From positions 1,890,008-1,954,007 of the forward strand of contig OX639992.1 in NCBI GenBank assembly GCA_951828515.1: 64,000 bases of DNA, given 5' to 3'. The notes below the pieces were generated by a model. That model searched no databases. It was not told where the DNA came from and saw only the letters and a list, made by a program, of their open reading frames with translations. The position numbers and the translations under genes are program-made. Origin of the DNA: an uncultured Poribacteria bacterium (lineage in GTDB: Bacteria; Poribacteria; WGA-4E; WGA-3G). The stretch's first letter is position 1. Each line of letters opens with the position of its first letter. Below are positions 10,394 through 40,575 of this stretch, piece by piece.

Positions 10394-10977
10394 GTTACCG
10401 CTTGGGCATGGTGGAGCTGCAATCCAATGCCAAAGCAACGAGTCGGGAATCGGAGTTCCCTCCTACAGAAGAAATGTGATACCTTGAGCATAGTGGAGTT
10501 GCAACGGTAAGATTAAAAACGTCAAGCCGAAAGTTGATCCTTAGGTTTGTTATCGCTTGGGCATGGTGGAGTTGCAACGCCTTTTTCGGCTGATAGGAAA
10601 TCCAGCCCCAGATCTGTTATCGCTTGGGCATGGTGGAGTTGCAACTGAAAGATTTTCGTTATGATGCCCGCAATCTGAACAGTTATCGCTTGGGCATGGT
10701 GGAGTTGCAACCCATAAGGATTTTCGCTATTGAGTTCAAACTGGTATGTTATCACTTGGGCATGGTGGAGTTGCAACTTTGACCGTGCGATCTCCCTGAT
10801 TTCTCTCCACTGTTCGTTATCACTTGGGCATGGTGGAGTTGCAACTCTCCGCTTTCTTTGTGGTCGATTCTGTCGTTGATGGTTATCACTTGGGCATGGT
10901 GGAGTTGCAACATCAGATTATGACACACCTGAAGGATTATCTGAAAAGTTATCACTTGGGCATGGTGGAGTTGCAAC
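10394..10977. CRISPR. CRISPR-like array, nine 30-base repeats
   Basis: Repeats lie at 10394-10423, 10476-10505, 10549-10578, 10616-10645, 10682-10711, 10748-10777, 10816-10845, 10882-10911 and 10948-10977. The core is CTTGGGCATGGTGGAGTTGC. Repeats 6-9 are identical and begin GTTATCAC, repeats 3-5 begin GTTATCGC, and repeats 1 and 2 are degenerate, so the array ages toward 10394. Spacers are 36-38 bases for the last six, 43 for the second and 52 for the first; all differ. The repeat ends in the self-complementary GTTGCAAC. Read on the minus strand it starts GTTGCAACTCC, similar in character to type II repeats. No cas1 or cas2 is in the window. An anti-repeat lies at 11072-11097 and an IscB-like gene starts at 11310. 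Confidence 0.93.
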
Positions 10978-11309
10978 GCTATGCAAGAATGTAGGTGTCA
11001 CTGGCAATCCTCTTAAGAGTTTTGCTGTCGACCTCCGATCGTGTGAATTCACCGGGAGATTGACGGCAAATTTGCAACTCCATGCTCAAGCGGTATCTAG
11101 TCTAAGTTTTCAACTACGTTACCTGTGATATAGACACCTTTGGGTGCATGACGCCAGCCTAAAGCTCCGTCAGGACAATGTAAACAGCTTTACAATACGC
11201 TGTCAATCCTGAAGAAAGCACGGATAACATTGACGAGGCTCGCTTTACCTCCAAAGGTCAATATCTTCTGCTTTTAGTGGGAGAATTATACCTTATTGAG
11301 AGAACATTT
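10978..11309. ncRNA. Candidate tracrRNA/omega-RNA region with anti-repeat
   Basis: The 332 bases between the array and iscB have no long open frame. At 11072-11097 is an anti-repeat. TTGCAACTCC is perfectly complementary to the GGAGTTGCAA end of the repeats, then a 3-base bulge, then ATGC, then CAAGC-type pairing, so most of 26 bases can pair. Further potential hairpins: CACC/GGTG at 11135-11146; TGACG..CGTCA at 11149-11172; CAGGACA..TGTC(AA)TCCTG at 11171-11211 enclosing a perfect TGTAAA/TTTACA stem at 11179-11194; and ATTGACGAGG..CCTC..GTCAAT at 11229-11262. Position just upstream of iscB is where IscB guide RNAs (omega-RNAs) are encoded. The anti-repeat instead recalls Cas9 tracrRNA. The strand of transcription is not settled (see findings). 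Confidence 0.65.
11178..11206 (-). promoter_or_regulatory. Candidate leftward promoter into the array
   Basis: On the minus strand TTGACA and TTACAT are 17 bases apart. Transcription from here would run through the anti-repeat and then the array. The site overlaps a hairpin of the candidate guide RNA, so the match could be accidental. Confidence 0.35.
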
Positions 11310-13172
11310 ATGTTTAAAGTTGCGGTTATAGATTCTGAAAAGAAAGTCTTGGAACCCTGCCATTCCGCAGCTGCCCGGCGTTTGCTTCGTGATGGAGCGG
11401 CGGCGGTATGGTGTAAATATCCGTTTACAATTATCCTCAAGCGCGTGATACCAGAGGACGAGATTGTAACGGGTGTTTATTCTCTAAATTGGGACCCAGG
11501 TTCCCGAATATCAGGGATTGCGATTTTAGACAATGAGAACAACATTGTCATGAAGGCAGAACTTCATCATCGAGGGTTCCAGATAACGAAGGCTTTGAAA
11601 AAGAGAGCGGGCTTTCGTCATGGACGGAGAACCCGCAATTTACGATACCGGCAAGCGCGCTGGGCGAATCGTAGACGTAAAGTGCCTGTTCTGACGGAAA
11701 CTGAAGGATGGAAGTACAAACGTGCTGAAGACGAGTCCGATCTATCGAAAGACTCGTCAAAAACGAAGAACAAGTTTGTGAGAGTGTCGTCTGCGCAATT
11801 GAAAGACAAGCGGTATCGTTATACTCGTATAAAATCCCGTAACCGTAAAGAATTCATGCCTGAGATGACGAACGCAAAGGTCGCACGTCTTACAAGAGAC
11901 AAGCTGATTCACCATATCATGATGCGTGATAAAAAAGCGGAACGCGATGCCCTGATGTCGAAAAGGTTAGGGTTCTTACGAAGTGCCCTGAAAGCAAAGT
12001 TGAAGAATACACCACCGACGAAGTATCGTTGGAAACGTGAGCGTATTGGACACAAAAAACGTGCGGATAACGGCTGGATTGCCCCGAGTCTTATGTCTCG
12101 TGTATTCAACTTAGAAACATGGACACGCCGATTGATAAATCTTTATCCGATAAAACGTCTCGCTATTGAGGAAGTCAAGTTTGATATGCAACTGTTAGAG
12201 AATCCTGATATTCACGGTATTGAATATCAACGGGGCCCCTTATACAGACGTGAAAAGAGAGCGTATTTATTGGAATTAACGAAGCGAAAATGTGCTTATT
12301 GTGGCAAAGGTGGGCAGCGTTTAGAGATAGAACACATTTACCCACAAGCCCTTGGCGGTTCAGACAGGCTCGACAACCTCACGATGGCATGTCATGCGTG
12401 TAACCAGAAAAAGGGTAGACTTTGGGGTAAAGAATTAGAAAAGCGGCATCCAGAGATTGCCAAAAAAATAAAGACTGTATTATCAAAATCAAAGCGCGGA
12501 TTCTCGCTATCAGACGCGGCGGCAGTGAATACGATTCGGTGGAAACTCGTAGAGACCCTCCAGGCGACACAACTCCCTGTATTTTGTGGTTCTGGAGGAC
12601 AGACGGCACACAATCGTAACGAGGCTGGACTGCCGAAGACACATTACTATGATGCAGCCTCCGTTGAAAACACACCCCAAGAAGCCTGTGCGAAAGCCCC
12701 TGTGCTTGTGATACATGCCCTTGGCTACGGAAGCCGGAATAACCTCAAATATCGTTTTGGGTGTACCGCAGGCGGAAAATTTCCAGGGTTCCGTCAGAAA
12801 ATTTTTAAAGCGTCTCACATTAACGGTTTTCACAGAGGCGACCATGTCTATCTAACAAAGGAGAACAGGCGCGTAGAAGGTGTAATTAACTGCTTTGAAA
12901 AGCCCCGCCCAGGGAAACCGCAAAAATGCCGTGTAAATAATTTTTATAAAGATACAAAAGACAAACGCGAATCAGGTAACCTCAGCCAATTAAGACGCTT
13001 CAGACATCGCGATGGATATGGGTATCAATATAGAAAGGATACAGGCTCCTTTCCTAAACCGATGCAAAAACCGGAAACACACACCGCACCTAAAACTGAA
13101 ACAGAACAGGTACGACAACCGAAGCTTAAACAGACAGAACCACAACAACTCGAATTTCCATTTTTTACGTAA
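11310..13172 (+). CDS. iscB: IscB-like RuvC/HNH RNA-guided nuclease, enlarged
   Basis: This 620-aa protein has IscB architecture. The N-terminal PLMP-like domain is at 1-45 (VLEP in place of PLMP, then KYPFTIIL). RuvC-I is LNWDPGSRISGIAIL with Asp62. An Arg-rich bridge helix lies at about 101-124. RuvC-II is LAIEEVKFDMQ (Glu287/288). The HNH domain has CAYC (328-331), IEH with His342, Asn356 and CHAC. RuvC-III is LPKTHYYDAA with His445 and Asp448. A C-terminal domain at about 465-580 matches the target-adjacent-motif-interacting part, followed by a Pro/Gln/Lys-rich tail. Ordinary IscB is about 400-500 aa. The excess here is mainly a basic insertion at about 125-252 between bridge helix and RuvC-II, where Cas9 carries its REC lobe. 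The ATG at 11310 follows GAGAG; a GTG at 11277 is also in frame. No TnpA is nearby. Confidence 0.88.
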   Translation: MFKVAVIDSEKKVLEPCHSAAARRLLRDGAAAVWCKYPFTIILKRVIPEDEIVTGVYSLNWDPGSRISGIAILDNENNIVMKAELHHRGFQITKALKKRAGFRHGRRTRNLRYRQARWANRRRKVPVLTETEGWKYKRAEDESDLSKDSSKTKNKFVRVSSAQLKDKRYRYTRIKSRNRKEFMPEMTNAKVARLTRDKLIHHIMMRDKKAERDALMSKRLGFLRSALKAKLKNTPPTKYRWKRERIGHKKRADNGWIAPSLMSRVFNLETWTRRLINLYPIKRLAIEEVKFDMQLLENPDIHGIEYQRGPLYRREKRAYLLELTKRKCAYCGKGGQRLEIEHIYPQALGGSDRLDNLTMACHACNQKKGRLWGKELEKRHPEIAKKIKTVLSKSKRGFSLSDAAAVNTIRWKLVETLQATQLPVFCGSGGQTAHNRNEAGLPKTHYYDAASVENTPQEACAKAPVLVIHALGYGSRNNLKYRFGCTAGGKFPGFRQKIFKASHINGFHRGDHVYLTKENRRVEGVINCFEKPRPGKPQKCRVNNFYKDTKDKRESGNLSQLRRFRHRDGYGYQYRKDTGSFPKPMQKPETHTAPKTETEQVRQPKLKQTEPQQLEFPFFT

Positions 13173-13424: not shown

Positions 13425-13458
13425 AAAGTCCCCTGATAAGGGGGATTTAGGGGGTTTA
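13425..13458 (+). repeat. 34-base repeat, inverted copy at 15868-15901
   Basis: The sequence begins AAAGTCCCCTGATAAGGG. Its reverse complement recurs at 15868-15901 with one mismatch. The two copies bracket the transposase relic, methylase fragment and Mrr-like gene. Confidence 0.85.
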
Positions 13459-13502
13459 AGAGTGTAACACCACCCGTTTTTGCTCAAGTGATATTGCTTT
13501 AG

Positions 13503-14335
13503 GCTCCATTCTCCATAGCCTCTCTGACTACTTGGTCATATCTTTTCGGATCTTTTCTGAAGAAACGCGTCAAAGGTCCAAAGCCGAAACTTTCTTTTTA
13601 CAAGATATTCAACTATATTCTCTATGTTTTGCATACCGGCATTCAATGGGATCAACTCCGAACACGGCGGAATGAACTGCATTGGTCTAATGTCTATAAA
13701 TGGCATAATCGCTGGTCAAAAGATGGTTCCTATGAAAACCTTTTTCAGGCATCTGTCATCCACTTACTTGATACCGATGAACTTGACACGACACGCCTTC
13801 ATGGAGAGGGTTCAAACACCGTCGTGAAAAAAGGGGTGACGGTATCGGGTACTCAGGACACAAACATCAGAAAGGCGAAAAAGAGTTGACGATCACCGAC
13901 AATCACGGATTCATTATAGGACCGATAACGATGAAACCCGTCAACGTACATGATACAACGATTTTGCCCGACGCCTTCAGTGATATAATCACCTTTAGCA
14001 AACGTATTGGCATGGATTTTTTCGGGTCTGCTCTAACACTTGACTCGGCGTTTGATTCTAAAGCGAATCATTAGTTGATTAGAGAACACGGACTGATCCC
14101 CGTGATCTATCCTAACCGGCGGAATGCTAAAGCACCTATCGTCATTGCTCGTAAGTTCCGCTGGTTTAACAAAGAGATATACAAAGACCGATATAAAGTT
14201 GAGCGAACTTTCGGTTGGCAAGATACTTATCGAAAACTTGCCTTGAGCTACGATAAACTCAAAGAGACCCGTTTAGGATTTCGGCACTTGGCATATTCAA
14301 TGATTAACTTTCGTATAACTTTCAACCATTCATAA
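13503..14335 (+). pseudogene. IS5/IS4-type DDE transposase relic
   Basis: Three open segments in sequence encode one transposase. The first, about 13503-13860, has TGIQWDQLRTRRNELHWSNV. The second, in another frame to 14071, has HGFIIGPITMKPVNVHDT and ALTLDSAFDSK. A TAG at 14072-14074 follows, then REHGLIPVIYPNRRNAKAP and YKVERTFGWQDTYRKL to the stop at 14335. Asp in LTLDSAFDS and Glu in KVERTFGW are the usual DDE residues of IS5/IS4-like enzymes. A frameshift near 13855 and the nonsense codon make it inactive. Terminal inverted repeats could not be identified with confidence. The right end abuts, and presumably interrupted, the methylase gene. Confidence 0.85.
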
Positions 14336-14338
14336 CGC

Positions 14339-14722
14339 CTACTCGCTATGAGTTCTAAGCTTGAGTCCACCTTGTGCCTCAATCTCCTCTCGTAGTGGAC
14401 CATTCTTGAGGGATGACAAAACAAGTTTGTTGTCGCCCCAGATTAACTTGTTCGTCCAGCCCTTAAGTTGGCGACCCCGTTCATCGAACATAGTAAGTTG
14501 CATGTCGGCTTCAGACGGTTTTTCGGCCCGGGGTTCGTCTACCTGCTCGATTGTCTGAAACGGGAGGACGATGTTGCAGACCTCGTTGGTTTTGCCGTTC
14601 CAGACGAGTTCGACTTCGCGTTTGTCTTCAAACAGCAGGAAGCGGTATTTGTCAGGCAGTGGTTTGTCCGCCTCAATAAAGCGGATGATTTCTTGTTGTT
14701 CCTGCTCTGTGAGTCTTGGCAT
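14339..14722 (-). pseudogene. Truncated type III/adenine DNA methyltransferase (Mod), N-terminus only
   Basis: The reading frame starts at an ATG at 14722 and encodes the N-terminal region of an adenine-specific DNA methylase. It ends with WTNKLIWGDNKLVLSSLKNG and AQGGLKL, the block that normally leads directly into the DPPY catalytic motif (YIDPPFxxG). Here it breaks off into RTHSE and a stop where the transposase relic begins, about position 14358. The catalytic DPPY and the whole target-recognition part are missing. A possible downstream piece is at 13183-13368. It follows the Mrr-like gene by 10 bases, suggesting a former operon. Confidence 0.75.
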
Positions 14723-14732
14723 GGGTTATCTC

Positions 14733-15641
14733 TTATATCAGTTGAAAAGGTTGAGGCTCAAACAAATCCAATTGAGTGTCACTTGGAATTCGATCTGCAA
14801 GGTGTTGGGCTAATTCCCAGTCAAATTGGCTGATAGGATCTAACCACGGGCGATCTGGTAGGATTGGGTCTAACATCTTATCAAAAATACCTTTATCAAC
14901 AAGTTCAACTGTCCCACCTCGTTTTTTTGCTTTAGCCACAATCTCTTGTGCATCTGGTGAAAATCTCTCAACCGTTGAAACGACAATACCTATGCGTTTC
15001 CCTTCTACGAACATAGTCCCAAATAATTCTCGGATTGTGCTTACTCCTTCAGAAGACTTTTGAGATCCACGGCGTTTGACTTGTATGAGCCATTGCTCAC
15101 TTCCGGTTTCTATTAGTAGGACATCAATTCCGCCATCGCGGGGTTTTCCAATATGTAGTACTTCAGCATTCGTGCAATTGGCTCGGAAAACATCCGCAAC
15201 GAATTTCTCGAAACGCGCAGGGTTGAAAGAATGCAGCAAATCAGGACACTGCTTTATGTGCGAAGCCAACTCTTCATTACAACCCTCAGGTAAATCTCCA
15301 TTAAACTCGCGGAGTTTTGAGATATACGCGTGAAAATCTGGTGGTGGTATACAATCACGGAGTGGATCGGAGTAAAAGCGTGCCTGCCAGAACCGACAAC
15401 CTCGACAATACCAGAGGCAATAGTTACGATAACTATTTCCCTCATCGACATACTCTTCAACCCTTAATAATTTAGTAGAACAATACTCACAACTCGTGAG
15501 GTCTTGAAGCGCATTATCAAGAATATCATCAAGGGTTTTGTCAGAACAATAATCTTCATCAAAGAGCTCACCATTCCAACCATCAATATCAAACTTATCG
15601 TATGCGACCATTTGTTTTGGTTTTTTTGTAGGGTCTGCCAT
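14733..15641 (-). CDS. Mrr-like restriction endonuclease
   Basis: This 302-aa protein has two CxxC pairs in its N-terminal half (CEYC near residue 51 and CRGC near 79), a likely zinc ribbon. The C-terminal half contains FEKFVADVFRANC and then GKPRDGGIDVLL...WLIQVKRR. This is the GGxD...QxK form of the PD-(D/E)XK nuclease active site found in Mrr-cat (type IV-like) endonucleases. Mrr enzymes cut modified DNA; here the partner is a broken type III-like methylase. The gene is intact with an ATG start, followed after 10 bases by the truncated methylase. Whether it still acts without its neighbour is unknown. Confidence 0.78.
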   Translation of the reverse strand: MADPTKKPKQMVAYDKFDIDGWNGELFDEDYCSDKTLDDILDNALQDLTSCEYCSTKLLRVEEYVDEGNSYRNYCLWYCRGCRFWQARFYSDPLRDCIPPPDFHAYISKLREFNGDLPEGCNEELASHIKQCPDLLHSFNPARFEKFVADVFRANCTNAEVLHIGKPRDGGIDVLLIETGSEQWLIQVKRRGSQKSSEGVSTIRELFGTMFVEGKRIGIVVSTVERFSPDAQEIVAKAKKRGGTVELVDKGIFDKMLDPILPDRPWLDPISQFDWELAQHLADRIPSDTQLDLFEPQPFQLI

Positions 15642-15951
15642 AATGAATCACCTATTATATTTTATTAATTTCAGAATTACATACCGTTCCGCTGGAGTGG
15701 AAGACCTAAAGTCCACGCGTGCTATGGACATACCGTTCCGGTGGAGCGAAGGAGTGGAGATAAATAGATTTTGTTATAGCTTTCTTCAGAAGAACAGTGC
15801 AATAGGATTTACGCAAATTGAGCAAATATGGGGCATTTTTACGCAAAAAGCGATAATTTTGGTATTCTTAACCCCCTAAATCCCCCTTATCAGGGGACTT
15901 TAAGAGCAGATGCGTAAGTCCTATGCAAGTTTTGGGATAATCAGGCATCAG
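15642..15951. other. Intergenic region with repeats
   Basis: No convincing gene is seen. It contains two CATACCGTTCCG units followed by GGAG (about 15680 and 15730), the inverted copy of the 34-base repeat at 15868-15901, and a GCGTAAGTCCTA motif at about 15912 that recurs near 20211. Confidence 0.6.
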
Positions 15952-16554
15952 TTACCAAATGTTGGCAAGCTCGTAAGTTGACTCAATATGTGCTTTCATA
16001 CCGTTGTCCGTAGCATTGACAAGATTTTTGAAGAAAGCCTCAGTCTCTTGAATGGCTTTGCTCGTTAGGCGAACTTTCCCACCCGGTGATCGGGTCCAAT
16101 CGTAATCGGGCATATCAAAACCGTGCGCGAAACTATGACGAACACGTAAAATTTCATTCAATCTTGCCCGAACTTGCAAACCGGTCATTCCACGGTGAGG
16201 CCAGATCCAGGCATCAATTGGGTCGTATCCGGTGCATTGAAGGAGTAAATTCCGTGTATTTTCCGAGTTCGGTGTATTAAATCTCGCCAAGGTGCTTTCT
16301 GCTGCGCGTTTAGCGAGTGTCTGTATAGCATCAAATTTGGAATTCGGCGGATCCGCTATCACATCGTAAAAGTCGCGCACCAAGTTGCTTATGTAAGCGT
16401 TCCATGCTGCGACGTAAGCTGCAAGTGCTGCGTGATAGTACACCTGTATTTCATCATGCAACATTGGGCGTAAACGCCTATCTGTTGCTGTTCTGCGTAG
16501 CGTTTGTATGTGACTCGCCGCGGTCAGGTACTGTAATGCTGCAGGTGATGACAC
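15952..16554 (-). CDS. HEPN-domain protein
   Basis: This 200-aa, mostly helical protein carries RLNEILRVRHSFAHGF near residue 145. RHSFAH fits the Rx4-6H motif of HEPN RNases. Such domains are common in abortive-infection, toxin-antitoxin and CRISPR-associated proteins, and usually cut RNA. The overall composition, with WNAYISNLVRDFYDV earlier, resembles the RiboL-PSP-HEPN and MAE-type HEPN groups, but the subfamily cannot be assigned by eye. It starts 9 bases after the ParA-like gene ends, so the two should be cotranscribed. A two-gene toxin/regulator or defence module is plausible. Confidence 0.62.
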   Translation of the reverse strand: MSSPAALQYLTAASHIQTLRRTATDRRLRPMLHDEIQVYYHAALAAYVAAWNAYISNLVRDFYDVIADPPNSKFDAIQTLAKRAAESTLARFNTPNSENTRNLLLQCTGYDPIDAWIWPHRGMTGLQVRARLNEILRVRHSFAHGFDMPDYDWTRSPGGKVRLTSKAIQETEAFFKNLVNATDNGMKAHIESTYELANIW

Positions 16555-16563
16555 AAGAACCCT

Positions 16564-17589
16564 CTAAAGATACGCCACAAAATTGGCAAGTGCATCCTGA
16601 AACTGCCTCAATGCTTCGCGCTCAAGTTGGACTTGCCTACCTCGAAACTTATTGAGTCCGGGTTGCAGGTGATATAAGGGGATTCCTGTTGTTATCATCA
16701 TACAGGCACCATGATAATCAGGTATTTCTATGAACCTTTCGCTCGGTAATGCTTTTGGGGTTGCATAGACTTGACGGTGTTTTTTGTGAAGAACATCTAA
16801 AGTTTTCTTGATAGATACACTCACACCCTCGAAAGCCTTGCTTGCTTTGTCTTCATGGAGCATGATACGGTTACTGATGAAAGTGTGAAGTTTTGGAATT
16901 GCGAGTCCCTCTTCTTTCGCCCTTCTGGCAAAGTTGAGTCGAGCGTAAGCTTCCATTTTTGGGTTACCCATACCGTTACCATAGAGCAGCGCGATGACAT
17001 TCTCCACAGCACGACGTGAACCATCATTAGAGGTAAAAGGCACGACAACGTTCTCTGCGGCGGCGAGTGCCAATTGGGTATAGATAGCAAAACTGGGATT
17101 ACAGTCAATGATAAAAATCATATCTCTGTTTCCACTCCGCTGACGCAATGCAAGGGTCAAGTCTTTGATCCAACTGAGTACCTGTTTCCATGCGTCTTCT
17201 GGAAGCGTGAACTCGGATATCTGTCGGATCGCCCCTGAGAGAATTTCCAGCAGATTATCACCACATACCAAAAGTAAATTGATTGGAAGTTTCGCATTAA
17301 AATCCCGAGGGCGACACACGTAGGAGGACACATCCTTGAGGGGCCGGAAAGGTGAATTTAGGCGTGCTTCAAGGTAGCCTGCCACTGTAGCACGGGGTGT
17401 CTGCCCCATAAGTTTGTGAATTACATCAGGATTAACAAGCAAAGTTTCAGAGATGTTCGCTTGTGGACACAGATCTATAACATAAACATCTGTGTCTGGA
17501 TAGGCATGAGCATACTCGGTCGCTGCAACAAAGCTTAAGAAACTCTTGCCAACCCCACCCTTATTGTTCCAGAATGCGTAAGCTGTCAT
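16564..17589 (-). CDS. ParA/MinD-like P-loop ATPase
   Basis: This 341-aa protein starts MTAYAFWNNKGGVGKSFLS, with the deviant Walker A motif KGGVGKS of ParA-type ATPases. DLCPQANISETLL follows in the switch region, and FIIDCNPSFAIYTQLALAAA is the Walker B block. The start at 17589 is chosen because GGGAG lies just upstream; a frame from 17607 would add six residues. Such ATPases position plasmids, chromosomes or protein clusters. Here the partner is a HEPN protein rather than ParB, and no parS-like repeats were seen. The location in a restriction island suggests a defence or addiction role rather than partitioning. A good promoter lies upstream. Confidence 0.8.
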   Translation of the reverse strand: MTAYAFWNNKGGVGKSFLSFVAATEYAHAYPDTDVYVIDLCPQANISETLLVNPDVIHKLMGQTPRATVAGYLEARLNSPFRPLKDVSSYVCRPRDFNAKLPINLLLVCGDNLLEILSGAIRQISEFTLPEDAWKQVLSWIKDLTLALRQRSGNRDMIFIIDCNPSFAIYTQLALAAAENVVVPFTSNDGSRRAVENVIALLYGNGMGNPKMEAYARLNFARRAKEEGLAIPKLHTFISNRIMLHEDKASKAFEGVSVSIKKTLDVLHKKHRQVYATPKALPSERFIEIPDYHGACMMITTGIPLYHLQPGLNKFRGRQVQLEREALRQFQDALANFVAYL

Positions 17590-17638
17590 GATGCAACTCC
17601 CTCTCAAAAATGAGAAAATTTGTGAAAAGATGCTTTAT

Positions 17639-22265: not shown

Positions 22266-23300
22266 TTAAGAAGAGGTTTCCAGACTATCCTTATAGTTAA
22301 AGTTCAATCGTGTTAGTATCTTAAAATCCGTATTTTTTGCGTTTTGACAAATCCGTTTCCCTTCAAGTGAATACAGAGAAATACCAGTTTTACCAAATCC
22401 ACTTATACGTACCAATCCATATTTCATGTGTTTGACGAGCGTATTCTTGACAACACCATTCCAAGTTGTCCCACCATACCGTGGACGTTTGCCACCTTTT
22501 TGTGGGTTCTGTCTATGTAATGATCGGCGATGTATCTCTATCGGTGATATACAGAAAATGTTCTTGTTGTCCACAACATCATCACCACCGACCGTATGAT
22601 ATGCAAGGCACCAACTATCAACGCAATGCGCATCAAAAGATTCTACGAGTTTATTGGATGACTTTTTCAAACCAAGTCTATCACGCAGTTCCTTTGTCTG
22701 CCATCCTTGAAGGGAGATAAATTCCCATCTCTTGCGAATTTCATTGTAGAACCACTCTTTGCCAACCTCTAAAGGAGAAAAAGATTGATTCCACCTTCGC
22801 GCACGATCTATTGATCTCGCTTTGATGTCCTCAACACAGATATGTGTGACCGGATAGAGTTTTGACAGCCAATCTAATACTCGAAGTTTCCATGCCCACC
22901 TCGCACGCGTTCCGGCAGGAATACGCGCTTTATTAGCCAAGCGATTTATACGGTTCTTTCGATTTGGACACCTGCGGCTACGTCTACCTTTGCGTAACTC
23001 GCGACGCTTCTCAATCTTCCTTCCAACGGTCATTTTCGCATCGGATTGCACATTCAGATAGGTGTGTGACTTGCTTTTGACGGTAAACCCTTCCCTTTTA
23101 CTACCCGGGTCAACACCAACAGCGATATCCTGTTTGTATCGACCTGAGGGTTCTCGATTTAGTCTAATACAAAACACACCATTTTTCCAATATGGTGTTG
23201 CATCACGGATATTGATGAGATGTCTTGCAACAGGCGGTGTTGTTGGCATCAACTGTTCACCGTCTTTTGCTGTAACTGGAACAAACAATGTTTGTAGCAA
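22266..23300 (-). CDS. isrB: IsrB: HNH-less IscB relative (RuvC nuclease)
   Basis: This 344-aa protein has the N-terminal PLMP-type domain (EQLMPTTPPVARHLI, residues 15-29), RuvC-I IAVGVDPGSKREGFTV with Asp64, an Arg-rich bridge helix at about 98-117, RuvC-II ICVEDIKA with Glu157 and RuvC-III SFDAHCVDSWCLA with His225 and Asp228. Between RuvC-II and RuvC-III there are only about 65 residues and no Cys/His HNH domain, which distinguishes IsrB from IscB. Known IsrB proteins are omega-RNA-guided nickases of IS200/IS605-type elements. The first start, TTG at 23300, directly abuts AGGAG; a TTG at 23288 is better spaced. The gene lies between oppB and oppC on the operon strand, with no TnpA. Confidence 0.88.
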   Translation of the reverse strand: MLQTLFVPVTAKDGEQLMPTTPPVARHLINIRDATPYWKNGVFCIRLNREPSGRYKQDIAVGVDPGSKREGFTVKSKSHTYLNVQSDAKMTVGRKIEKRRELRKGRRSRRCPNRKNRINRLANKARIPAGTRARWAWKLRVLDWLSKLYPVTHICVEDIKARSIDRARRWNQSFSPLEVGKEWFYNEIRKRWEFISLQGWQTKELRDRLGLKKSSNKLVESFDAHCVDSWCLAYHTVGGDDVVDNKNIFCISPIEIHRRSLHRQNPQKGGKRPRYGGTTWNGVVKNTLVKHMKYGLVRISGFGKTGISLYSLEGKRICQNAKNTDFKILTRLNFNYKDSLETSS

Positions 23301-38512: not shown

Positions 38513-38810
38513 TTAATTCTCCCTGTAGGTTCAGGATCGCCTTGAAGTTGTCATTTTTCGATGTTTTATTTTTTTTCTCTATGCCACACGTTGTGCAGTG
38601 GTGGGTAAGGATATAATCGCCGTGTTTTATAGTAAAGCCTATCGGTTCCATCAAGCCGTGACAGGACGCGGCTCGGTCGCCGGGGTTCACATCAACGTGT
38701 CGGCTCCAGAGGCACTCTGGACAGTGATTGGTATAGCCGCTACCCTTGACGGAGGCACCACACTGCGCGCAGGTAAAGTTTTCAATGTGGCGTTGGAATT
38801 TTTTGTTCAC
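38505..38810 (-). CDS. RNHCP domain protein
   Basis: This 101-aa protein has the RNHCP layout: FTCAQCGASV, then TNHCPECLWSRHVDVNPGDRA, SCHGLMEPI and HHCTTCG. The Cys/His pairs should bind zinc. The family is widespread but its role is not established. The start is a GTG at 38810 whose last bases form the TGA stop of the upstream TOPRIM-like gene. The gene thus sits in a tightly overlapping cluster with the AAA ATPase, the TOPRIM-like protein and the OmpA-like protein. Confidence 0.82.
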   Translation of the reverse strand: MNKKFQRHIENFTCAQCGASVKGSGYTNHCPECLWSRHVDVNPGDRAASCHGLMEPIGFTIKHGDYILTHHCTTCGIEKKNKTSKNDNFKAILNLQGELNV

Positions 38811-39424
38811 TGGTTAGTACCTGCATACTTACTCTCATTTAGCCGATCCAGAGTGCGTTTTAGACTGGGTGATACAGCGGTAGCGCGTCCTAAATTCCAA
38901 TGTTCCCGAACGAACTGAATCAATCGAGGATTATATTCATTTCCCGTTTTTGCGGATTTATCGCTCTGTGCCGGCACAAGTGCCTCTCGCAATCTTGTAT
39001 TTTTGCTCCTTCGTGCAAGCGATACAAAGAATTCCTTGGGAGAATCGATCTCGTCAGTGTTCCGTGGAATACGATTAACGGGTATCGCTAGAAATTCTGC
39101 AACAGCTTGCCGATCTGCCATAATCCAAGATTCAATTTCCACGACTGCAATACGAAGAAAAAACCAACGATTTAAACGTCCTTTCACCCAAGACCGAATG
39201 AGAGTAGGTGGACAAGCTTTAGGGGAATCCAAATCCGTTAACATAAAAATACCACATTCCTGATGCGCGGCTTTGTTGTACCCTTGTGCCTTCCGCTGTA
39301 GGTAAGAATTTCCTTCATATATGACTCTTCGTACAATTTCTATATCAAAATGCTGAAGAATCTTGGTCGAAACTGCATCGCTGAGCCTATCTTCAACGAC
39401 AAGAATTACGTTGTTCAATTCCAT
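38807..39424 (-). CDS. DUF4276/TOPRIM-like protein
   Basis: This 205-aa protein has VVEDRLSDAV near residue 10, with a Glu where TOPRIM nucleases have one, and IFMLTDLDSPKACP near 60 with a DxD. VEIESWIMAD follows near 96. This resembles DUF4276 and other TOPRIM-fold proteins that pair with AAA ATPases. Its start overlaps the ATPase stop by 10 bases, so the two are translationally coupled. By analogy with OLD nucleases and PARIS (AriA ATPase with AriB TOPRIM), the pair may be an antiphage module. That is inference from gene pairing. Confidence 0.62.
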   Translation of the reverse strand: MELNNVILVVEDRLSDAVSTKILQHFDIEIVRRVIYEGNSYLQRKAQGYNKAAHQECGIFMLTDLDSPKACPPTLIRSWVKGRLNRWFFLRIAVVEIESWIMADRQAVAEFLAIPVNRIPRNTDEIDSPKEFFVSLARRSKNTRLREALVPAQSDKSAKTGNEYNPRLIQFVREHWNLGRATAVSPSLKRTLDRLNESKYAGTNQ

Positions 39425-40575
39425 TTTAATAGACTTAACTGTTCGGCATGTTCAGGACCAGCTCTCGAAAGTACAATTTCACCAACCGTGAGACCTGCTT
39501 CAAGAAGCCTTCGCACGTGTTTAACATCCCATGCAACTTTGACTTCTGTTTCTGTTTTTGTGGGTATTAGCATTAGTACTTCTGTACCATCAATGCCCGG
39601 TTCTGTGAGAAGTGCATCGCTATGGGTACTAACAAAGACTTGGCGTCGTCTGCTCCTCTGCATCCGAGAAATCAAAGGCGCAAGTTGCGAAACGATTCCG
39701 AGGTTCAATGAAAGTTCGGGTTCCTCCAATAAGAGAACTGAGTCACTCTCAAGAAGTGCCCACAGAAGCCCAAGCAATCGGAGTGTCCCATCAGAAAATT
39801 GATCCTCTTGCTGCCATACTCCCTTTGCACGCCAGTGCGAATAGAGTGCCCTTAAATGGGGTCGCCCTGTATTTTTATCACGAAGAAATTCCAATTGCTC
39901 AAATTGTGGCACAGCAATTTTGAGTGCCGATTCAATTTTTCTCAACCGAGAACGACGGGTTCGTTCAGTAACACTAGCAACTCTTTCAAGAAATCCCTGT
40001 CCAAATGGATCTTCTTCAACTATTCTGCCCTGAATTGAATCTGCGAATCGAAGAAGTTGCGGCACTAAATGGAGGTAGGTAACACTTCTGAGGAACTGCG
40101 CAATCTCTCGAAATCCGGCATTCATGTTGATCTGCTCAAGAAAGGTCTGGGTAAGACGATCCGTATCTACGTTGTCGTCTTCATCCGGTCTATCAAGAAG
40201 CAATTCACTCTTTTTCCACACTTGTTCACGAGTAAGATAGGTACGACGATGTCCCCGGGTCTCTTGACGAAAACCCAGTGCATAGCGCCATTTGGTAGAG
40301 GCACCTGGCGTTTCCGAGATATGAATTTCAATAGAGACTTCTGGGTCCTGCCTCGCGGAAAGGCATCGGATTTTTGAAATACCCCCGCGGTCCCTGACTG
40401 CCTTCTGAAATCCACCACCGTCCGTCTTGACAATATCTCGAAGAAAGCGAAAAATATCTAAAAGGTTGGATTTGCCTGAAGCATTTGGACCTACGATAAA
40501 CTGCCGCTCTCTCAGTGGAACATTAATCTGTCGAAAGTTCCGCCAGTTTTTGGCAATAAGTCGATTGATAATCAT
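39415..40575 (-). CDS. RecF/OLD-type AAA ATPase
   Basis: This 386-aa ATPase has MIINRLIAKNWRNFRQINV at the start, Walker A VGPNASGKSNLLD near residue 30, and the ABC-like signature FSDGTLRLLGLL near 262. Walker B SVLLLEEPELSLN and VFVSTHSDALL follow. Between the motifs is a helical insertion of about 150 residues that would form a coiled-coil arm. It belongs to the AAA_21/SMC-like group common in defence and repair genes. It is the first gene of the overlapping cluster ATPase, TOPRIM-like, RNHCP, OmpA-like. Confidence 0.85.
   Translation of the reverse strand: MIINRLIAKNWRNFRQINVPLRERQFIVGPNASGKSNLLDIFRFLRDIVKTDGGGFQKAVRDRGGISKIRCLSARQDPEVSIEIHISETPGASTKWRYALGFRQETRGHRRTYLTREQVWKKSELLLDRPDEDDNVDTDRLTQTFLEQINMNAGFREIAQFLRSVTYLHLVPQLLRFADSIQGRIVEEDPFGQGFLERVASVTERTRRSRLRKIESALKIAVPQFEQLEFLRDKNTGRPHLRALYSHWRAKGVWQQEDQFSDGTLRLLGLLWALLESDSVLLLEEPELSLNLGIVSQLAPLISRMQRSRRRQVFVSTHSDALLTEPGIDGTEVLMLIPTKTETEVKVAWDVKHVRRLLEAGLTVGEIVLSRAGPEHAEQLSLLKWN

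Follow-up and report, generated by a model that had tools for sequence, protein, structure and literature searches.

A Poribacteria IscB beside a CRISPR array, with a basic insert at the position of the Cas9 REC lobe

We analyzed a stretch of 64,000 nucleotides (the window) from an uncultured, sponge-type Poribacteria bacterium (GCA_951828515.1, contig OX639992.1, positions 1,890,008 to 1,954,007, forward strand), whose genome of 5.85 Mb lies on one contig at 95% completeness. The window holds a gene for IscB that stands beside an array of clustered regularly interspaced short palindromic repeats (CRISPR) and encodes 134 residues between the bridge helix and RuvC-II, where Cas9 carries its REC lobe. 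At the level of sequence, the locus has the architecture of an effector, the insert, the parts of a guide RNA and their pairing, homology to HEARO RNA, and spacers with targets in phage and TnpB genes. It is probably a stand-alone CRISPR effector that came from a transposon-type IscB and works with a HEARO-derived RNA resembling trans-activating CRISPR RNA (tracr-like RNA), the basic insert most likely acting in the manner of a small REC lobe.

A single origin from IscB is assumed for Cas9, with an array-fed guide and a REC lobe acquired as the RNA became smaller. Another lineage that acquired an array-fed guide and an enlarged linker would be a natural replicate of that step, and would let one ask whether the enlarged linker enables, or follows from, the switch from omega RNA to CRISPR RNA (crRNA) plus tracr RNA. 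The window IscB is also, by prediction, an RNA-guided nuclease of only 620 residues with a likely NGG-type motif.

The IscB protein and its insert

11310–13172, + strand: iscB, with ATG at 11310 and the stop codon ending at 13172; 620 residues
11673–12074, + strand: insert at the REC position, residues ~122–255, borders from alignment
11679–11723, + strand: beta hairpin predicted within the insert (residues 124–138), in sequence common to clade members
11832–11993, + strand: nested piece of ~54 residues (~175–228), in the window IscB only, predicted mostly helical

The protein runs in the order PLMP/RuvC-I, bridge helix, insert, RuvC-II, HNH, RuvC-III, and an end that interacts with the target-adjacent motif. 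It matches RRXRR (PF14239, N-terminal) and HNH in Pfam and is an IscB by the NCBIfam equivalog NF040563, at 335 bits against a cut-off of 175. The RuvC and HNH motifs are intact, with D62, E287, H342, H445, and D448 present and invariant, and RNA-guided double-strand cleavage by the two domains would be expected from the family.

An earlier note on this DNA had proposed an insert of about 130 residues, rich in lysine and arginine, at the Cas9 REC position. Alignment to homologues placed its borders close to the 11682–12065 given there, and 134 residues were found between the end of the bridge helix (NR, 120–121) and RuvC-II (GW, 255–256); an alternative count that takes in three more RuvC-II residues gives 137 for the same segment. 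Its basic character is borne out by 30.5% lysine plus arginine, against 18.9% in the remainder of the protein, and by a net charge of +24 in 128 residues. The reading frame through the insert is unbroken, and its guanine-cytosine content matches the remainder of iscB.

In a comparison of ~109 IscBs, taken from both genomes and viral contigs, this linker measured 5–10 residues in nearly all, and 5–8 in most relatives; shortness is usual for the family without being a strict criterion. Linkers above 20 residues without a zinc finger were restricted to a Poribacteria clade of CRISPR-linked IscBs, and the other long linkers (~33–39 residues, in Bacillota) are of the zinc-finger type. The insert is, as the note had it, absent from ordinary IscB, but part of it is common to the nearest relatives. 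Two relatives at loci L005 and L006 are 53% identical to the window IscB and have a 77-residue linker at the same place, and alignment resolves the insert into two layers, ~77 residues common to these relatives and the ~54 residues nested within them. The shared layer (RKVPVLT..GW.Y.RA.. plus a basic RWKR..RADNG end) is well conserved in all three proteins. Searched alone, the insert yielded no relatives of the nested piece in Pfam, solved structures, or Poribacteria genomes, a viral sequence scan with the entire insert region likewise yielded none, and no sequence match to solved REC domains was found.

Full-length AlphaFold2 modelling (21 sequences) gave a mean predicted local distance difference test score (pLDDT) of 69, and the insert region reached about 40–75. 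Two predicted helices (184–204 and 209–232) agree with the helical look noted earlier, which left out the beta hairpin (124–129/133–138). Modelled alone, the segment was weaker, with a predicted template modelling score of 0.25 and the two helices merged into one. Because both models are weak, we assign no fold to the insert, whose predicted structure is too uncertain for it to be called a REC domain. The nearest structures to the full-length model were engineered OrufIscB-REC (top), OgeuIscB, and TbaIscB.

The insert is thus REC-like by position, charge, and context, with a weakly predicted fold and a function proposed by analogy. As a small REC lobe it would most likely hold the repeat:anti-repeat duplex, the far end of the guide:target duplex, or both, and REC segments in Cas9d and in engineered OrufIscB-REC make such duplex contacts (PMC11706934, PMC13180657). 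A possible though less probable alternative is a basic, partly disordered extension peculiar to this lineage, which would help in general RNA binding and have no REC-like role, the CRISPR link being a separate matter. The low model confidence of the insert, the nested piece without relatives in anything searched, and the presence of arrays beside clade members with linkers of only 23–40 residues are all in its favor. Against this, the layer common to the clade is well conserved between the window IscB, L005, and L006, unlike junk, the insert lies exactly at the REC position, and it is largest in one array-bearing branch.

CRISPR array, guide RNA, and spacer targets

10394–10977, + strand: CRISPR array with 9 repeats, each 30 nucleotides long (GTTATCRCTTGGGCATGGTGGAGTTGCAAC), upstream of iscB
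11027–11248, + strand: tracr-like scaffold with homology to the HEARO/omega RNA model RF02033, between the array and iscB
11071–11098, + strand: anti-repeat TTTGCAACTCCATGCTCAAGCGGTATCT, inside the HEARO-like RNA and complementary to the repeat, with a hairpin just before it

Seven near-identical repeats (10549–10977) enclose 6 spacers of 36–38 nucleotides, and 2 degenerate repeats lie at the iscB-distal end (10394–10423 and 10476–10505). No other array with a GTTATCRCTTGGGCATGGTGGAGTTGCAAC-type repeat occurs in the window genome. The scaffold matches RF02033 at 76.0 bits (E 2.7e-15), just under the gathering score of 83; the nearest relative, L005, scores 83.4. The repeat:anti-repeat duplex, at -32.6 kcal/mol, beats 200 of 200 shuffled repeats, and in the minimum-free-energy fold the last array repeat pairs with the anti-repeat. 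The locus shares with type II Cas9 a CRISPR array together with a predicted tracr RNA that contains an anti-repeat.

In ordinary omega RNA, the outer stem occupies the place of the anti-repeat. Here the anti-repeat sits there instead, and the part of the one omega RNA would fall to a crRNA together with the tracr-like RNA derived from HEARO. This arrangement is the one described for the passage to Cas9, in which crRNA replaces the ascending strand of the omega RNA outer stem (PMC9581776). Under the reading we prefer, the array and the adjacent RNA would be transcribed towards iscB, each repeat would pair with the anti-repeat, which stands in for the outer stem of the ancestral omega RNA, and IscB would cut spacer-matching phage and transposon DNA with about NGG directly after the match.

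It seems to us very unlikely that the array is part of a different CRISPR system and came to lie beside an ordinary transposon IscB by chance. No cas genes are nearby and related genomes hold resident cas1-linked arrays, as this explanation would have it, but the anti-repeat sits within the HEARO-derived RNA of the IscB itself, and the arrangement of array, RNA, and iscB recurs throughout one clade. Further, the repeats of iscB-linked arrays are unlike those of the cas1-linked arrays in related genomes that have cas1, and the window genome (one contig, 95% completeness) was found to contain no cas1, cas2, or cas9. Among the loci compared, no common neighbor genes that might serve adaptation were found beyond the local synteny of L005 and L006.

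The first 4 spacers have matches that could be placed:

10579–10615, + strand: spacer 1, matching at 89–97% a major head gene of phage origin present in many Poribacteria, then CGG or CAG
10646–10681, + strand: spacer 2, matching TnpB (OrfB_IS605) genes at 86–94%, then CGG or AGG
10712–10747, + strand: spacer 3, with a 78% match on the viral contig of spacer 1, flank TAG
10778–10815, + strand: spacer 4, with matches of 76–87% in the phage family of spacer 1, CGG at 2 of 3 distinct sites

Spacer 1 also matches an IMG/VR contig on which portal and terminase genes adjoin the head gene, and spacers 1, 3, and 4 converge on this one viral contig. The match of spacer 4 there is 76%, with 79–87% at two related loci, and its best target is a ribbon-helix-helix repressor gene. 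Two TnpB targets of spacer 2 lie in its own genome, at 86–89% over the full spacer. Spacers 5 and 6 had no convincing target, and no matches were found between the window spacers and the phage collection; exact IMG/VR scans returned the spacer 1 contig, and for spacer 3 a single contig that no full-length match supported. The contig G048:C178, which is shared by the IscB loci L007, L008, and L108, also carries the phage family targeted by spacers 1 and 4.

CGG follows the best target of each of spacers 1, 2, and 4, on the flank where the motif of IscB or Cas9 would lie, and the chance of any shared trinucleotide within the first 8 flank bases of these three is about 0.0015. A protospacer-adjacent motif (PAM) of about NGG is likely, and may be a requirement for cutting.

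A Poribacteria clade of CRISPR-linked IscBs and its relation to Cas9

Relatives were drawn from 85 Poribacteria genomes. The window IscB belongs to a clade of nine (support 100/100), the others being L005, L006, L007, L008, L009, L010, L061, and L062. Linker length is graded across it, from 134 residues in the window IscB through 77 (L005, L006), ~40 (L062), and 35 (L010, L061) to 23 (L007, L008, L009). Seven of the nine have an array beside iscB, with repeat counts of 9 in the window, about 20 in L005, about 21 in L006, 17 in L010, 9 in L061, and 4–5 in L009; L062 has both a short array with a repeat peculiar to it and a second array of a different type, and L007 and L008 have one repeat-like unit each and no full array. 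HEARO homology was identified at the window locus, L005, L006, L007, L009, L061, and L062, and repeat:anti-repeat pairing beats all 200 shuffles in 5 of the 8 other members. The earlier note had also considered an insert common to the whole clade without CRISPR association; the clade is instead CRISPR-associated, and the full insert occurs in the window IscB only.

On the reverse strand of L062 (2153–3030 of the reversed locus), two unlike arrays stand in tandem ahead of a single iscB. It is the second array that suits the anti-repeat, and its repeat has diverged from those of other clade members; repeat and anti-repeat have been altered together. L005 and L006 have flanking genes in common and spacers that are not, which suggests that spacer content turns over while the locus is inherited. 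Spacers of L005, L006, and L061 had no targets among the 85 genomes. An apparent repeat near L177 was rejected as an array, being a coding repeat.

The clade is nested inside transposon-type IscBs with 8-residue linkers and is separate from the Cas9 lineage. TbaIscB, the founding IscB of the Cas9 lineage (PMC13180657), falls outside the group that contains the clade (100/99), and a tree forcing the two together was rejected (approximately unbiased test, p-AU 0.006); the tree left out Cas9 itself, and TbaIscB was represented by a partial sequence. Cas9 models score far below their cut-offs on the window IscB (TIGR01865, 29 bits against 100; Cas9d NF049971, 42 against 375). In view of the separate clade and these scores, we regard the likeness of the insert to the REC lobe as analogy and not as common descent. 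The idea that it marks a step leading to Cas9 was not supported, since the protein belongs to a separate IscB lineage and the insert has no sequence match to solved REC domains; we take it instead for a parallel case that arose by convergence. A true link from IscB to Cas9, with an insert homologous to the REC lobe, would account for the shared position, for the array and tracr-like RNA, and for TbaIscB being the closest solved structure by sequence, but the placement of TbaIscB, the rejected joining, the Cas9 model scores, and the unmatched insert sequence make it highly improbable, slightly more so than a chance neighborhood of array and iscB.

We lean, with some reserve, towards the view that a transposon IscB gave rise to a Cas9-like CRISPR effector a second time, independently, and that the stages of this origin survive in one phylum. 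These would run from OMEGA IscBs with HEARO RNA (the Poribacteria loci L066–L068, outside the clade, with a 5-residue linker, full-scoring HEARO RNA, and no array) through a leftover single repeat (L007, L008) and short arrays (L009) to full arrays with linkers of 35–77 residues (L005, L006, L010, L061) and, in the window, the 134-residue insert.

Several observations weigh against the locus as a stand-alone effector with a REC-like insert. Good evidence for the PAM comes from only three spacers, and the match of spacer 3 has TAG. At L010 (L010:3767-3869), spacers 7 and 8 match HtrA-like and dockerin-like genes of their own chromosome at 97 and 100%, without NGG. Pairing in L006, L009, and L061 is not clearly better than in shuffles, confidence in the modelled insert is low, and the lack in the window genome of cas1 and cas2, which mark a type II CRISPR-Cas locus, bears on how its spacers were gained.

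CRISPR-associated IscBs were reportedly described by Altae-Tran et al. in Science in 2021. They are likewise reported to have an array beside iscB, no adaptation genes, and a non-coding RNA between; the Poribacteria loci appear to differ in forming a whole clade, with an insert graded up to 134 residues and identified phage and TnpB targets. In the literature searched, we found no description of the Poribacteria clade, its graded linker, or an insert of such size.

The OMEGA nucleases OgeuIscB and TbaIscB (PDB 7xht, 9k30) share PLMP, RuvC, bridge helix, HNH, and an upstream HEARO-type RNA with the window locus, whereas the latter has array-derived guides, an outer RNA stem made of repeat and anti-repeat, and the large insert. 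Type II-D Cas9 (Cas9d; YnpsCas9 and NbaCas9, PDB 9k31, 9k32) has an insertion between bridge helix and RuvC-II, an array, a tracr-like RNA, and the PAM on the 3' side, and it often lacks adaptation genes (PMC9755519), as at the window locus. In contrast, the window IscB belongs to a separate lineage, keeps its PLMP domain, and matches no REC or Cas9 model above cut-off. Enlarged linkers at this place also occur in CzcbIscB and in further IscBs whose zinc finger is REC-like (PMC13180657), whereas the window insert lacks the CxxC zinc finger; Bacillota loci of the zinc-finger type (L013, L015, L018, L020, L021) carry a CxxC..CxxC linker of ~36 residues at the REC position and have no array. In the engineered OrufIscB-REC and NovaIscB (PDB 9nvu; PMC13180657), a REC segment sits at the same IscB junction, but theirs is a grafted Cas9d REC, whereas the window insert is natural and of unrelated sequence.

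Other features of the window

22269–23300, - strand: second RRXRR protein, 344 residues, no HNH, IsrB-like
38810–40575, - strand: gene pair matching the candidate defense system HEC-01 (A, E 4e-155; B, E 8e-58)
14342–17607, - strand: defense-type genes, including a type III methyltransferase fragment, an Mrr-like nuclease, a HEPN RiboL-PSP protein, and a ParA-like ATPase
13560–14335: broken transposase-like reading frames downstream of iscB
13425–13483 and 15843–15901: pair of 59-nucleotide inverted repeats around the broken transposase-like stretch

Two further genomic sites (L002, L003) hold proteins similar to the second RRXRR protein.
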